Positions 36,555-42,192 of a DNA stretch of 64,000 bases are shown here, piece by piece. The notes under the pieces are model-generated. The model made no database searches, was not told where the DNA came from, and saw only the letters and a list, made by a program, of their open reading frames with translations. This DNA is from Thermomonas paludicola (GTDB lineage: Bacteria; Pseudomonadota; Gammaproteobacteria; Xanthomonadales; Xanthomonadaceae). How positions within the stretch are numbered: the first letter of the stretch is position 1; every line of letters begins with the position of its first letter. The DNA lies in contig NZ_CP093311.1 of NCBI RefSeq assembly GCF_024498955.1, forward strand, positions 868,001 to 932,000, read 5' to 3'. The translations under genes and the position numbers were made by a program.

Positions 36555-38918
36555 TCAGCGCGCCGTCGGCGCCAGTACCAGCGTGTGGCGGGTTTTCCCG
36601 GGAAGGAACGGCGTGGGCTGGCCGTCCACCCATGCCGCATGGCCTGCGCCCCAGAATGGCGACAGCGGGTGCCCGCTCTGCCCGCCCGGCATGTGGATGA
36701 TGCCGTCGGCCTCGTGTCCGGGCGACACCACCATCCGCTCCGATGCGCCAAACGCCGGGCCGACCACGCGCGGCATGTTGCCGTCGCCAGCCAACGGCTG
36801 CGCCGGCATGCACAGCCAGCGTTTCCCCAGTAGTGGAATGGCGCTTGCCAGCGGATGACAGATGGCGGCGGTGTTGCGTTCACCCCATGTGCGCTGTGCC
36901 AGCGGGCCGAGCGTTTCGAGCTTGCCGCGCACCTCGACGGCCGCATCTTCCAGCAGGGCGTCCCAGCTTGTATATCGCGGCGGCAGCAGATGCAGTGGAC
37001 GCTGGGTCAGCAGTGGCCAGGCAACGCCCTCCAGCTGCGGCAGGTCGGGCATGACGAAGGCCTTGCCCAGCGCGGCGCGTGCCGGTGCGGTGAGTCCCTC
37101 GGCGATGCGCGCATGCACCGCCAGGCGCCATTCGCGCACGATGCGGTAAGACACCGACCCGATGGCTGCTCGGGCTTCCCAATGCGCGGCGGCGTTGGCC
37201 AGTGCCTGCAGCGCTGGGGTGCGTGCAGCCTTCGCGCGTTCTTCCAGCAGGCCATGCCAGGGGGTCAACAGCAGCGCGCGATCATCCAGCTGGATCGCCA
37301 GCAGGTCGCGTTCACCGACGCGCTGCTTGCCCTGCAGGGCATCGCGGATCTGCGCCGCGCGAGCGCCAAGCACGTAGCCGCCATCGCCCACGCGCTGCAG
37401 CGTGTCGCCATCCACCACGCGATTGTTGGCGGTCCACAGGCGATCCACCTGCGGGGAGCGCAGCAGCGGATTGTCCTTGCCGGACACCGGCCACGGCGGG
37501 CAGGGTTCGTCGCGATCGTCCTCCACGCTGGCTGCATGCGTGCAGGTTTGCGCGCGCTGCGGCAGGGGGCCCAGCAGGCGCCAGGCGATATGGCCCCGGG
37601 CATCCACGATCAGCAGATTCTGGGTGGGCATCGCGATGCCCTGCGCGATGCGCAGCGCGTCATCCAGATGGGCGGCGGTGGCGAATTGCGCCAGCCCCAG
37701 GTTGACGGCGCCAGGTTGGTGGGCAACCCAGCGCAGCGACAGCACGCGGCCATCGGCCTGATGCTGGACGATGGGCCCCCACGCGGTTTCCTGCACGTCC
37801 AGCGTGATCGGATTTCCGCGTGCAATGTCGATGCGTTCGGCATGGTGTTGCACGCGGGCGCAGCCCGCCGGCGCGCCCGGGCCGCACGGCGTTTCCAGCT
37901 TCCAGTCCATGCTGTCCACGTAGCTGTTGGTGAACCCCCAGGCCACGTGACCGTTGCTGCCCACCACCACGGCCGGCAGGCCGGGCAGGGTGAAGCCCTG
38001 CACGTCCACGTGGCCACCGGCGGCGGCAGGGTCGGGGTAGCGCAAGCGCGCGCGGAACCAGAGGTCGGGCGCGCGCAGGCTCAGGTGCATGTCGTCGGCG
38101 ACGATGGCACGGCCATCGACGGTCAGGTTGCCGGCCACCGCGAAGTTGTTGCTGCCGGGCGTGCCGTTGGATTCCGCGCTGGCGATTGCCAGCGAAGACT
38201 GCGGAAGGCGGCGCAGATCCACCTCACCCGGGCCAGGCAAAACGGCGTCGCCGCGTGGTTCGCCCTGCAGCGCTGCGTCCCAGCGCGTGCCGTCATGGGC
38301 CAGCAGGGCGTACAGCGCAGGCGGCATGTGCGGACGCATCCGCCACAGCGCCAGTTCGCTTTTGTTGTCGCCGCCTTGCAGGTCGAAATACATCGCAAAG
38401 GCGGCCAGCGGCGTGTCTTCCATGCGCCACGGCTGCGGCTGCTGGCGCAGCAGCAGATAGGCCCAAGGGCGCACGCGCAGCGCCGCAAGCCCGGCATTGA
38501 CGCCCTCCGCATAGGCTTGCAGCTGTGCGTGCTTGCTGCCCGCGATCCGGTCAAGGTCGCGGCTGGCCCGGGCCCGCAAGCGATGCAGGCGATGCTGTTT
38601 GTCCACGTCCAGTGCGATGTCGCCGAATAACGCGGAAAGCTCGCCGGCGGCACTGCGCCGCATCAGGTCCATTTCGAAAAAGCGTTCCTGCGCATGCACG
38701 TACCCCAGCGCGCGCATGGCATCGCGTTCGTTGGCGGCGTCGATGGTGACGGTGCCGTTGGCATCTCGGCTGACGCTGACTTGCGCCGACAGGCCGGGCA
38801 GCGCCTGGCGGCCATCCAGCAGCGGCAGGCTGCCGCGCAACAGCCACAGCGCAAGCAGCGCGCAGACCGTGATCGACACCAGCAAGGCGGCCACCCCGCG
38901 CCGTAGCCATTTGCGCAT
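36555..38918 (-). CDS. Penicillin acylase family protein
   Basis: A 787-residue Ntn-hydrolase precursor. A membrane anchor or signal (about 10-29) precedes the alpha subunit; autocatalytic cleavage is expected between Gly255 and Ser256 (PGS-NNFAV), with Ser256 the N-terminal nucleophile of the beta subunit. The family includes penicillin and acyl-homoserine-lactone acylases, so possible roles are quorum-signal or acyl-amide hydrolysis; the substrate cannot be read from the sequence. It is divergent from asnB across 261 bases and convergent with dapE. Confidence 0.9.
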   Translation of the reverse strand: MRKWLRRGVAALLVSITVCALLALWLLRGSLPLLDGRQALPGLSAQVSVSRDANGTVTIDAANERDAMRALGYVHAQERFFEMDLMRRSAAGELSALFGDIALDVDKQHRLHRLRARASRDLDRIAGSKHAQLQAYAEGVNAGLAALRVRPWAYLLLRQQPQPWRMEDTPLAAFAMYFDLQGGDNKSELALWRMRPHMPPALYALLAHDGTRWDAALQGEPRGDAVLPGPGEVDLRRLPQSSLAIASAESNGTPGSNNFAVAGNLTVDGRAIVADDMHLSLRAPDLWFRARLRYPDPAAAGGHVDVQGFTLPGLPAVVVGSNGHVAWGFTNSYVDSMDWKLETPCGPGAPAGCARVQHHAERIDIARGNPITLDVQETAWGPIVQHQADGRVLSLRWVAHQPGAVNLGLAQFATAAHLDDALRIAQGIAMPTQNLLIVDARGHIAWRLLGPLPQRAQTCTHAASVEDDRDEPCPPWPVSGKDNPLLRSPQVDRLWTANNRVVDGDTLQRVGDGGYVLGARAAQIRDALQGKQRVGERDLLAIQLDDRALLLTPWHGLLEERAKAARTPALQALANAAAHWEARAAIGSVSYRIVREWRLAVHARIAEGLTAPARAALGKAFVMPDLPQLEGVAWPLLTQRPLHLLPPRYTSWDALLEDAAVEVRGKLETLGPLAQRTWGERNTAAICHPLASAIPLLGKRWLCMPAQPLAGDGNMPRVVGPAFGASERMVVSPGHEADGIIHMPGGQSGHPLSPFWGAGHAAWVDGQPTPFLPGKTRHTLVLAPTAR

Positions 38919-39003
38919 CGTGCTTCACTCCGCCGGATGGTGATTTCGTTACATGAGAAATCGTTGCTTGCAAGTTGGCAAGCCCCTGGTGCAGGATCTT
39001 CGC

Positions 39004-39090
39004 ATGCGCCAGACCTTCGCCAACCGCAATTCGCTCAACCGCAGCAATCGCGGCACGAATCCGCGTGCGCGGCTGCGGGCCCGCGCATAG
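39004..39090 (+). CDS. Candidate asparagine-rich leader peptide of asnB
   Basis: A 28-codon open frame upstream of asnB begins with ATG and ends with TAG, with AGGA seven bases before the start. Five codons are Asn (positions 7, 9, 12, 15 and 19; AAC twice, AAT three times), 18% of the peptide, ahead of the gene that makes asparagine. The frame differs from that of asnB. It also has eight Arg codons, but in such GC-rich DNA these are less telling. It overlaps the first strand of the attenuator hairpins. I infer that ribosome stalling at the Asn codons reports Asn-tRNA supply. Confidence 0.72.
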   Translation: MRQTFANRNSLNRSNRGTNPRARLRARA

Positions 39091-39146
39091 CCAAGGCAAC
39101 ACGGCTGAACGACAAGACCCGCATCGCAGGATGCGGGTTTTTTTTT
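39066..39146 (+). promoter_or_regulatory. Transcription attenuator (anti-antiterminator, antiterminator, terminator) before asnB
   Basis: Three competing pairings are visible. Stem 1:2 (TGCGCGG 39066-39072 with CCGCGCA 39081-39087) overlaps the end of the leader peptide and holds TGCGGG (39074-39079) in its loop. That TGCGGG can instead pair with CCCGCA (39118-39123), the 5' arm of the terminator. The terminator is CCCGCAT 39118-39124 with ATGCGGG 39131-39137, followed by nine T's to 39146. A ribosome stalled on the last Asn codon (39058-39060) would cover strand 1, free TGCGGG and prevent termination; a ribosome reaching the TAG would let the terminator form. Confidence 0.72.
39118..39146 (+). 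terminator. Intrinsic terminator upstream of asnB (conditional)
   Basis: A 7-bp GC-rich stem with a 6-nt loop and a T9 tail ends 33 bases before the asnB start codon. No gene end lies nearby on the plus strand apart from the leader peptide, so a regulatory terminator is the natural reading. Confidence 0.85.
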
Positions 39147-39179
39147 CCTTCGATTCCCACTCGACCCCAGGAATTTCCC

Positions 39180-40883
39180 ATGTGCTCCATCTACGGCATT
39201 TTCGGCCTGCAGTCAGGCGATGACATCCAGGCACTGCGACGCGAGTCGCTGGAACGCTCGCAGCGCCTGCGCCACCGCGGCCCCGACTGGAGTGGCGTGT
39301 ATCTGGATGCCGGCGCGATCCTGGTGCATGAACGCTTGGCCATCGTCGATCCGGCCGGGGGTTCGCAGCCGCTGTTGTCCGATGACGGCGGACTTGTGCT
39401 GGCGGTCAACGGCGAGATCTACAACCATCGCGAGTTGAAGGCGGCACTGCGACTGCCCTATGCCTTCCAGACCGAATCGGACTGCGAGGTCATCAACGCG
39501 CTGTATCGCGAAGGCGAAGCCGATGGCAGCGGGCCGGCGTCGTTCCTCAATCGGCTGAACGGCATCTTTGCCTTCGCGCTGTGGGACAAGGCCGCCGGCC
39601 GCGCGATCATTGCCCGTGATCCGATCGGCGTGGTTCCGCTGTATTGGGGGCATGACCGGGAAGGCCGGCTGCGCGTGGCCTCGGAGATGAAAGCGCTGGT
39701 GGACGACTGCGCGGACGTGGCGCAGTTCCCGGCGGGCCATTGGTATGACACGGGCAGCGGTCAGTTGCACAGGTACTACCAGCGTCCGTGGCGGGAGTAC
39801 GACGCCGTGGCCGGTGTGGCCGTGCCGCTGGACGAACTCCGCGAGGCGTTTGAAGCCGCCGTGCATCGCCAACTGATGACCGACGTGCCTTATGGCGTGC
39901 TGCTGTCGGGTGGGTTGGATTCCTCGCTGGTGGCAGCGGTGGCTGCGCGCTATGCGCGCCATCGCGTCGAGGACGGCGATGCGACCGAAGCGTGGTGGCC
40001 GCGCCTGCACAGCTTCGCCATCGGGCTGAAGGGCTCGCCCGACCTGGCTGCGGCGGATGTCGCTGCCAGGTCGCTGGGCACCGTGCATCACGGCTTTGAA
40101 TACACCTTCGAAGAGGGGCTGGACGCGTTGCCGGAAGTCATCCGGCATATCGAGACCTATGACGTCACCAGCATCCGCGCATCGACGCCGATGTTCCTGC
40201 TGGCGCGGCGGATCAAGGCGATGGGGGTGAAAATGGTGCTGTCCGGCGAAGGCAGTGACGAGATTTTCGGCGGGTATCTGTACTTCCACAAGGCGCCCAA
40301 CGCGCGCGAGTTCCACCAGGAACTGGTGCGCAAGATCGATGCGCTCTACAACTACGATTGCCTGCGCGCCAACAAGTCGATGATGGCCTGGGGGGTGGAG
40401 CCGCGCGTGCCGTTCCTGGACCGCGAGTTCATGGATGTCGCGATGCGGATGGATGCCGCATGCAAGATGATCGACAAGGCGTCCGGGCGCATCGAGAAGG
40501 CGCTGTTGCGCGATGCGTTCGAAGGCTACTTGCCGCAGGAAATCCTGTGGCGGCAGAAAGAGCAGTTCAGCGATGGCGTGGGTTATGGCTGGATCGACGG
40601 GCTGAAGGCCCATGCCGACGCGCAGGTGTCGGATCGCGAGCTGGCTGCCGCCGGCAGGCGCTTCCCGTTCAATCCGCCACAGACCAAGGAAGCGTATTTC
40701 TATCGCGTGATCTTCGAGCGTTTTTATCCCACGGCCGCGGCCGCGGAAACGGTGCCAGGCGGCAAGTCCATCGCCTGTTCTTCGCCCGCAGCCATCGCCT
40801 GGGATGCCAGCTTCGCCGGCATGGCCGACCCGTCCGGCCGCGCCGTGACCGGCGTGCACGCACAGGCAGTGGCGGCGGTCTGA
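39180..40883 (+). CDS. asnB: Asparagine synthase B (glutamine-hydrolysing)
   Basis: A 567-residue enzyme that makes asparagine from aspartate, ATP and glutamine. After removal of Met1, Cys2 (MCSIYGIFG) is the glutaminase nucleophile; the class II amidotransferase domain covers about 2-200 with RGPDWSG and NGEIYNH, and the synthetase domain has the PP-loop SGGLDS at 243-248 and a GEGSDEIFGGY segment. Length is close to E. coli AsnB (554). An upstream in-frame extension of the reading frame runs back through the terminator and is rejected. Expression is probably controlled by the leader described above. Confidence 0.96.
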   Translation: MCSIYGIFGLQSGDDIQALRRESLERSQRLRHRGPDWSGVYLDAGAILVHERLAIVDPAGGSQPLLSDDGGLVLAVNGEIYNHRELKAALRLPYAFQTESDCEVINALYREGEADGSGPASFLNRLNGIFAFALWDKAAGRAIIARDPIGVVPLYWGHDREGRLRVASEMKALVDDCADVAQFPAGHWYDTGSGQLHRYYQRPWREYDAVAGVAVPLDELREAFEAAVHRQLMTDVPYGVLLSGGLDSSLVAAVAARYARHRVEDGDATEAWWPRLHSFAIGLKGSPDLAAADVAARSLGTVHHGFEYTFEEGLDALPEVIRHIETYDVTSIRASTPMFLLARRIKAMGVKMVLSGEGSDEIFGGYLYFHKAPNAREFHQELVRKIDALYNYDCLRANKSMMAWGVEPRVPFLDREFMDVAMRMDAACKMIDKASGRIEKALLRDAFEGYLPQEILWRQKEQFSDGVGYGWIDGLKAHADAQVSDRELAAAGRRFPFNPPQTKEAYFYRVIFERFYPTAAAAETVPGGKSIACSSPAAIAWDASFAGMADPSGRAVTGVHAQAVAAV

Positions 40884-40884
40884 A

Positions 40885-42192
40885 TCAGCCCGCTTCCAGT
40901 CCCCGGATCTGGTTGCGGCCACCGGCCTTGGCCAGATACAGGTGGCGATCGGCTTCGCCCAGCAGCTTGTGCAGGTTCGGGAACTCCGGCGAGCGCCGGC
41001 TGGCGCCGATGCTGATGGTCATGCGCAGCGGCCTGCCGTCGATGTCGATCTCCAGTGCTTCCACCGCCTGCCGCAGCTGTTCAAGATGCCGCAGGCTGCT
41101 GGCGGGGTCGGCATCATCCAGCACCATGCAGAACTCTTCACCGCCGAAGCGCCCGCTGCAATCGCCCGGTCGCGTATGGGCCTGCAGCACGTGGGCCATC
41201 GCGCGCAATGCCTGGTCGCCGGCTTCGTGGCCAAAGCTGTCGTTGATGTGCTTGAAATGGTCGATGTCAACCATGACCACGGTGACGGCCATGTTGCCGG
41301 AATTGCCGTTGAGGAATTTTTCGCTCTGTTCCAGAAAGCTGCGGCGGTTGGGCAGGCCGGTGAGGAAGTCGCGGGTGGCGAGGTCTTGCAGGGTGCCGAT
41401 CAGTTCCAGCTGTTCGACGTTCTGCGAGACACGGCAGAAGAACTCTTCGCGCGAAAAGGGTTTGTGCAGGAAGTCGTTGGCGCCGCTCTTGAGGAAGCGG
41501 GGAATCAAAGAAGCATCGGTGCTGCCGGACACGCCGATCACCGCCATCCGGTCGCGCGCGCGCAGTTGGCGCAGCCGGCGGGTCAGCTCGATGCCGTCCA
41601 TGGTCGGCATTTCCTGATCGACGATGACCAGGCGGATGCTCTGGTCGCCTTCCACCAGGCGCAAGGCCGAACTGCCGTCGGCCACCGCGCTCACGCGGAA
41701 GCCCTGCGATTCCAGCAGCGAGCCGATATAGGAACGCGACGACGGCGAGTCGTCCACCACCAGCGCACTGATGCGGCGGTTGCGCTCCAGCCGCTGCACC
41801 AGCCACACGAGGTAGTCGATGCTGTCCGGCGTGCTCTTCAGCACGTAATCGATGATCTGCTGCTGCAGTGCGCGCTTGCGCAGTTCTTCGTCGTACACGC
41901 CGCTGACCACGATGGTGGGCAGCTTGCGGGCGGTGAAGAAATCGAGGATCTGGTCGCGGTCGCCGTCAGCCAGCACCATGCCGGTGAGGACAAGGAACCA
42001 GTCGTCTTGATGGTCCAGCAGATTGGCTGCTTCCGCCAGCGTCGAGGCCACGCTGACCGGCAGTTCCATCCGCTGCGAGATGGCTTCACGCAGCATCGAT
42101 GTGTATGCGCGTGAGTTCTCCACCAGCAGGATGCGCTGGGGCAGGGCAGGCGTTGCGGGCGCAGGGTAGGCCGCGACAGGTCTTGCCGACAT
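40885..42192 (-). CDS. Response regulator: degenerate REC, REC, GGDEF
   Basis: A 435-residue protein with two receiver domains and a diguanylate cyclase domain. REC1 (about 20-130) lacks the phospho-acceptor: Thr70 occupies the Asp position, though Lys119 is kept, so it probably serves as a structural or binding module. REC2 (about 142-262) has Asp192 in LVIVDQEMPTMDG. The GGDEF domain has an intact GGEEF at 350-354 and an RxxD inhibition site (RPGD) five residues before it, so active cyclic di-GMP synthesis is expected. It converges on asnB with a one-base gap. No partner kinase is adjacent. Confidence 0.9.
   Translation of the reverse strand: MSARPVAAYPAPATPALPQRILLVENSRAYTSMLREAISQRMELPVSVASTLAEAANLLDHQDDWFLVLTGMVLADGDRDQILDFFTARKLPTIVVSGVYDEELRKRALQQQIIDYVLKSTPDSIDYLVWLVQRLERNRRISALVVDDSPSSRSYIGSLLESQGFRVSAVADGSSALRLVEGDQSIRLVIVDQEMPTMDGIELTRRLRQLRARDRMAVIGVSGSTDASLIPRFLKSGANDFLHKPFSREEFFCRVSQNVEQLELIGTLQDLATRDFLTGLPNRRSFLEQSEKFLNGNSGNMAVTVVMVDIDHFKHINDSFGHEAGDQALRAMAHVLQAHTRPGDCSGRFGGEEFCMVLDDADPASSLRHLEQLRQAVEALEIDIDGRPLRMTISIGASRRSPEFPNLHKLLGEADRHLYLAKAGGRNQIRGLEAG

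Follow-up and report, generated by a model that had tools for sequence, protein, structure and literature searches.

The window, by which is meant the whole stretch of 64,000 nucleotides analysed here, belongs to a genome of 2.72 Mb and carries asnB, the gene for a glutamine-hydrolysing asparagine synthase B, on its forward strand. Its neighbours are a divergent gene of acylase-like type (36555-38918), with a weak PvdQ match, and a convergent gene for a GGDEF response regulator (40885-42192). Ahead of asnB lie a short open reading frame and an intrinsic terminator, and the elements considered below are the following.

38968-38973, forward strand: candidate -35 box, TTGCAA, 36 nt before the leader ATG.
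38992-38997, forward strand: candidate -10 box, CAGGAT, a weak signal 6 nt before the ATG, containing AGGA (38993-38996).
39004-39090, forward strand: leader peptide open reading frame, 28 codons plus TAG, with five Asn codons.
39022-39060, forward strand: stretch with the five Asn codons, the presumed sensing codons.
39039-39045, forward strand: candidate strand 1, CCGCAGC, pairing with 39072-39078 in the minimum-energy fold; modestly supported.
39066-39087, forward strand: previously proposed hairpin, arms 39066-39072 and 39081-39087, most of strand 2 lying in the loop; retained in near relatives, covariation not clear.
39069-39079, forward strand: strand 2, GCGGcTGCGGG, the 5' half of the antiterminator.
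39114-39146, forward strand: intrinsic terminator, stem 39114-39125/39130-39141 and a run of nine T's at 39138-39146.
39118-39127, forward strand: strand 3, CCCGCATCGC, pairing with strand 2 or, as part of the terminator 5' arm, with strand 4.
39180-40883, forward strand: asnB (NF006949, 850.3 bits against a cut-off of 499).

A first-pass annotation of this DNA had described a 28-codon frame with five Asn codons, followed by a terminator shortly before asnB, and both could be read directly from the sequence. The frame begins with ATG at 39004-39006, encodes MRQTFANRNSLNRSNRGTNPRARLRARA, and ends with TAG at 39088-39090, with Asn codons starting at 39022, 39028, 39037, 39046 and 39058, while the terminator's nine T's are separated by 33 bases from the asnB ATG at 39180. 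At the Asn frequency of the five neighbouring genes (2.27%), the probability of at least five Asn in 28 codons is 0.00038.

An Asn-rich short frame with a terminator, whose recurrence in relatives had been left as a question by the first-pass annotation, is widespread ahead of asnB in the order Lysobacterales. Upstream regions were collected from AsnB relatives, being fetched for part of the relatives' genomes, picked for spread, with 80 loci (of more) kept from named genomes, and were examined with a pattern rule that asked for one open reading frame with three or more Asn among its final 30 codons, followed by a terminator 10-45 nt past the stop. The pattern was present in 121 of 146 Lysobacterales regions, or 112 of the 136 distinct ones (ten being repeats), and in none of 146 reverse strands, none of 730 dinucleotide shuffles and one of 43 outgroup regions. 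Among the 25 misses, six (L019, L020, L141, L145, L162 and L181) display by eye an Asn-rich frame and a GC hairpin with either a weak T run or an imperfect stem, and another (L134) has a match to the covariance model described below, farther upstream. In the Rhodanobacter loci L017, L022, L025, L027 and L028, palindromic GGCCAT..ATGGCC-like units were seen by eye between the terminator and asnB, in some of these loci several times over.

The terminator and its competing structure were evaluated in an alignment of 73 leaders, all representatives under 80% identity. The terminator was paired in 96.6% of cells, compared with 86.9% after shuffling, and the antiterminator in 79.4% compared with 72.4%, with 44 antiterminator double-change cells against 21.2 in shuffled alignments. 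None of 500 shuffles matched either the paired share or the double changes of the antiterminator, and all six slides gave lower values; further pair types were not above shuffles (318/500). At column pair 62/137, A-U replaces G-C between strands 2 and 3 in five leaders while strand 4 retains its G, a swap that is not demanded by the terminator alone. In the window, TGCGGG (39074-39079) can pair perfectly with CCCGCA (39118-39123), and this alternative pairing, first pointed out in the earlier annotation, is borne out by the covariation of the antiterminator across the 73 leaders. The Asn codons and the competing stems, on whose conservation that annotation had staked its proposal, fared alike: codons, terminator and antiterminator are all conserved in Lysobacterales, and the stems covary. 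In most leaders the best duplex with strand 3 is formed by sequence in the final 35 nt leading up to the stop codon, and the energy of the 2:3 duplex gave a z below -1.64 in 65 of 111 leaders (mean -2.4). In Lysobacter-type leaders this duplex is weak, with z about 0 to -2, little better than shuffled.

A covariance model was built from the same alignment and 35 candidates were scored per genome in 99 genomes. Among the matches listed, 50 reached at least 50 bits, in 49 of the 99 genomes, and all of these lie before asnB on the same strand, including a second match in G054, at a contig end, which likewise precedes asnB. These scores arise partly by construction, because many of the matched leaders trained the model; what is informative is that no other match listed for the 99 genomes reached 50 bits. 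A class-wide search of 369 genomes, with nine candidates scored in each, yielded four matches above 50 bits, all in Lysobacteraceae. The end of the model match lies 21-100 bases from the asnB match in 48 of the 49 genomes and 279 bases in one. This proximity, together with the 33-base gap in the window, the covarying antiterminator and the promoter-like boxes upstream of the leader, makes it improbable that the terminator merely closes a small independent gene or small RNA and that asnB is served by a promoter downstream of 39146, a reading which the strength of the terminator and a simple scan of 38880-39200, in which no consensus sigma-70 promoter was called, would otherwise favour.

Within the family, 44 of 59 genomes contain a model match of at least 50 bits in front of asnB, some on contigs with a partial asnB; weaker matches precede asnB in G028 (38.0 bits) and G033 (31.8 bits), and a leader was recognised by eye in G058. 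Six of the 59 have asnB without a leader (G027, G038, G042, G046, G051 and G057), among them the Lysobacteraceae genome G027, the AsnB of which is 74% identical to that of the window, and six gave no full-length asnB match (G007, G013, G021, G026, G031 and G035). In an AsnB tree of 101 rows, drawn from 136 by thinning of outgroups and close relatives and inferred by a quick method with SH-aLRT support, all 72 leader carriers were placed in one supported clade together with three non-carriers (L015, L021 and L039); Lysobacteraceae with another AsnB are without the leader, and four label changes are needed on the tree. The records of the three non-carriers are titled Holophagales, Rhodococcus and Deltaproteobacteria, and their AsnB could reflect either gene transfer or mis-binned contigs. 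Ahead of asnS, no Asn-rich frame with a terminator was seen by eye in five AsnRS upstream stretches.

The pairing that would hide strand 2 is less clear. The first-pass annotation had placed most of strand 2 in the loop of a stem formed by 39066-39072 and 39081-39087, and part of this holds: the two arms are a perfect 7-bp complement, at least six of the seven pairs are kept in 13 of 13 window-type leaders (all seven in ten of them), so that the hairpin may have a local role in leaders of this type, but the 5' arm is identical in all 13. It shows no clear order-wide covariation, however, and was rejected as an element conserved across the order, being paired in 49.0% of cells among the 73 leaders as opposed to 48.5% when shuffled, with 26 double-change cells against 19.3, a count reached by 22 of 500 shuffles, and with two slides higher. 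The pairing of candidate strand 1 (39039-39045/39072-39078) occupied 55.2% of cells in the alignment versus 51.9% shuffled (0/500), and a slide of -3 gave more double changes, 46 versus 24. A general 1:2 hairpin was likewise set aside, since the pairing of strand 2 with upstream sequence averaged 0.607 compared with 0.595 in codon-permuted leaders (p = 0.10); in the window the value was 0.90 compared with 0.73, and 9 of 40 permutations were as high. A hairpin that sequesters strand 2 is accordingly not proven.

To what extent the peptide itself is under selection was assessed from codon counts in 111 distinct leaders, preselected for at least three Asn codons and a terminator, in which Asn is the commonest amino acid at 686 of 2939 codons. 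Related leaders were compared in 38 disjoint pairs. Of the 80 Asn sites that had changed, 37 had done so synonymously, the expectation being 11-27% for a transition bias between 1 and 8 (p between 3e-15 and 1.3e-4), and in the same pairs 27 of 158 changed sites elsewhere in the leaders were synonymous. This synonymous excess at Asn codons points to selection on the peptide sequence and not solely on the RNA. The Asn codons of the 111 leaders comprise 363 AAC and 323 AAT, so that AAT is nearly as frequent as AAC, unlike in the window's asnB (AAC 7, AAT 2); AAT is perhaps retained in the leaders for slow decoding or weak pairing.

The placement of these codons was then considered in fold models with a ribosome at successive positions. 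In nascent RNA before strand 4 is made, the mean probability of the antiterminator was 0.87 with the ribosome stalled at Asn codons, 0.56 at other codons and 0.78 in free RNA, and it fell to 0.00 with the ribosome at the stop codon, a value that follows from the assumed footprint. The probability was at least 0.5 at every Asn stall in 106, 96 and 92 of 111 leaders for footprint edges of 9, 12 and 15 nt, respectively. In 100 of the 111 leaders no Asn codon falls beyond the last permissive position, against 9.8 expected by codon permutation, a control that is partly unfair because strand 2, being rich in GC, has hardly any room for Asn codons. Counted from the boundary, Asn has a share of 0.74 at the second codon upstream and 0.60 at the first, and of 0.00 at the second to fifth codons downstream, and the ON range of positions holds 98% of Asn codons compared with 60% of Arg codons. 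These models suggest that the run of Asn codons stops at the point from which a stalled ribosome would start to overlap strand 2. The earlier proposal, that the codons are so placed that a stalled ribosome masks strand 1 where needed, is thereby upheld in that modelled stalls at Asn free the antiterminator, but the particular strand-1 hairpin is less supported. In full-length folds at equilibrium the terminator mostly prevailed, with means of 0.70 at Asn stalls and 0.86 in free RNA, and with 0.99-1.00 for the window's five Asn stalls even with strand 2 free, so the switch must rest on the order of folding.

Arg (536) and Ala (498) are also abundant among the 2939 leader codons, as would be expected if the leader sensed general translation speed or another amino acid such as Arg and its Asn codons were incidental. 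The greater number of Asn codons, their concentration in the ON range relative to Arg, the frequent synonymy of their changes and the function of the downstream gene, which makes Asn, all argue against such a sensor, which is considered very unlikely.

The conservation of the leader, the selection on its codons, the covariation of its stems and the placement of its Asn codons together predict a ribosome-mediated transcription attenuator for asparagine, a reading to which a probability of roughly 0.87 is assigned from sequence and fold models, and for which we infer charged tRNA-Asn to be the signal. RNA polymerase would start at or next to the leader ATG, and the leader peptide would be read from a leaderless mRNA. 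When charged tRNA-Asn is ample, the ribosome would reach the TAG and cover strand 2 (39069-39079), strand 3 would then pair with strand 4, and transcription would end in the T run. During a shortage of charged tRNA-Asn, the ribosome would stall at an Asn codon and leave strand 2 free to pair with strand 3 (39118-39127), in which case the terminator would not form in time and asnB would be transcribed.

The start point invoked in this scheme is based on the sequence upstream of the leader, with the ATG chosen by a promoter-blind rule in 113 of 117 leaders, of which 112 are distinct. Of these 112 leaders, 94 carry TTGC 35-37 nt upstream of the ATG (mean 1.1 and maximum 5 in 200 shuffles), and a weak -10-like signal is apparent, with T in 50% at -13, A in 57% at -11 and T in 54% at -7. 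Near the -10 place, relatives show TAGCGT, TAACGT, TAGGGT, CATAGT and others, and C occupies position -1 in 93% of the 112 leaders. Shine-Dalgarno cores were present at only 22 of 112 leader starts compared with 108 of 112 asnB starts, and 17 of these cores coincide with the CAGGAT at the -10 place itself; the mean anti-Shine-Dalgarno energy was -2.98 for leaders, -3.86 for shuffles and -6.34 for asnB. The usual distance from promoter to start would put the first transcribed base at or a few bases from the leader ATG. The position of TTGC and the scarcity of Shine-Dalgarno cores therefore indicate that the leader mRNA is probably leaderless, starting at or next to the leader ATG, and the AGGA that had been taken for a ribosome-binding site is, given how few leaders have a Shine-Dalgarno core, more likely part of a -10 box.

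A comparable arrangement was encountered among the model's next-best matches. Of the weaker class-wide matches (44 bits or less), L215, L216, L217, L219 and L235 showed no sign of asnB by eye. L235 and nine lower-scoring matches from the 99 genomes were also read: in L235, L242, L243, L244, L245, L247 and L249 an ILVLVLI-type leader precedes a frame for ketol-acid reductoisomerase, identified by family scan for L244, L245 and L247 and by eye in the other four; L248 has an ILIL-rich peptide before dihydroxy-acid dehydratase, and nothing comparable to a leader was found on reading L246 and L250. One of these loci lies in the window's own genome (L235 1501-1628, at G000:C1:2315360-2315487), where an ILVLVLI leader and a terminator precede an ilvC-like frame. 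TTGACA is found 36-37 nt before the branched-chain leader ATG in all six loci that reach that far, two loci being too short, and the leader of L235, with TTGACA at 36 nt, therefore looks leaderless too. These ilvC leaders, from the same and related genomes, resemble the Asn leader in the order of their parts and differ from it in codons and gene, and their ILVLVLI-type peptides count further against a general or Arg-directed sensor at asnB.

A more tentative interpretation, judged possible though somewhat doubtful, is that the attenuator is leaderless and on by default, operates without a sequestering 1:2 hairpin, and represents a Lysobacterales layout used for several amino acids (Asn at asnB, branched-chain at ilvC). 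With transcription starting on the leader AUG, a ribosome could engage the RNA immediately on its emergence, with no need for a Shine-Dalgarno site; the free RNA would favour the antiterminator (mean 0.78 before strand 4 is made), and asnB would be switched off only when a ribosome finishes the leader and covers strand 2.

The leader could in principle act on the translation of asnB, or through a protein or a tRNA-binding RNA (T-box), and this is regarded as most improbable. The codon-level selection argues indirectly for translation of the leader, no Rfam family, leader or T-box, matched the window at its gathering score, and in seven loci searched up to E = 1 the only leader-type matches were sub-threshold Trp_leader and Thr_leader, with no T-box among them. 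Against cut-offs of 41 and 55 bits, respectively, Trp_leader scored 31.7 bits at 39042-39146 of the window and Thr_leader 27.5 bits in L014. No fitting leader peptide family was found in NCBIfam for six peptides, which gave one chance-level match (E 0.19), or in Pfam for three.

For the preferred attenuator to sense asparagine, Asn-tRNA has to be made from free Asn, and the gene content of these genomes is consistent with this. AsnRS is present in 94 of 99 genomes, GatB in none of the 59 family genomes and in 19 of the 40 other genomes of the order, and AsnA exceeded its cut-off in 0 of 60 genomes, G061 falling just below. Free Asn is therefore the likely source of Asn-tRNA where the leader occurs. 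Of the 40 other genomes (G059-G098), none combines full asnB, present in 17, with GatB, present in 19 (Fisher p = 7e-8), and four have neither, so that full AsnB and GatB are apparently two exclusive routes to Asn-tRNA there. These genomes commonly also encode more distant AsnB-like amidotransferases, 39-52% identical across part of the query, and asnB therefore need not be the sole one. The six family genomes lacking a full AsnB match also lack GatB; some of these assemblies are incomplete, and some of the genomes may represent Asn auxotrophs.

Vitreschak and others are said to have surveyed proteobacterial attenuators in 2004. No Asn leader-peptide attenuator was found in Rfam or, going by titles and the openings of abstracts, among the open-licence PMC papers listed in full-text searches, and an earlier mention elsewhere is possible. 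Three papers on other leaders (PMC2965389, PMC1262725 and PMC9413887) did not yield the word "asparagine" in their main text, and PMC3771888 mentions AsnB2 (XCV1533) only in a table. If the prediction is correct, asparagine would join the amino acids sensed by leader-peptide attenuators, within the order to which Xanthomonas, Stenotrophomonas and Lysobacter belong, and the control of the main AsnB-type asparagine synthetase in these bacteria would be explained. The predicted leaderless leader also bears on attenuation without a Shine-Dalgarno site in gammaproteobacteria.

Leader-peptide attenuators of enterobacteria control trp, his, thr, ilv, leu and phe. The Asn leader shares with them an open reading frame rich in the amino acid of the next gene, an intrinsic terminator, a competing antiterminator and codons at positions where ribosome stalling leaves strand 2 free, and differs in its predicted sensing of Asn and control of asnB, in a 1:2 hairpin that is not established and in a reading frame apparently without a Shine-Dalgarno site. 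The Asn-specific T-box of Firmicutes responds to the charging of tRNA-Asn by binding the tRNA directly; both systems would be tied to tRNA-Asn charging, by prediction in the case of the leader, which gave no T-box match. In its predicted leaderless state the Asn leader resembles rnTrpL of Sinorhizobium meliloti, where the trpL transcript has been reported from experiment to start at the ATG of the leader open reading frame (PMC7298713), although that leader senses Trp, belongs to an alphaproteobacterium and is experimentally based. The type of mechanism proposed here is the known trp/ilv kind, while its specificity for Asn would, on sequence grounds, represent a new amino acid for such attenuators.
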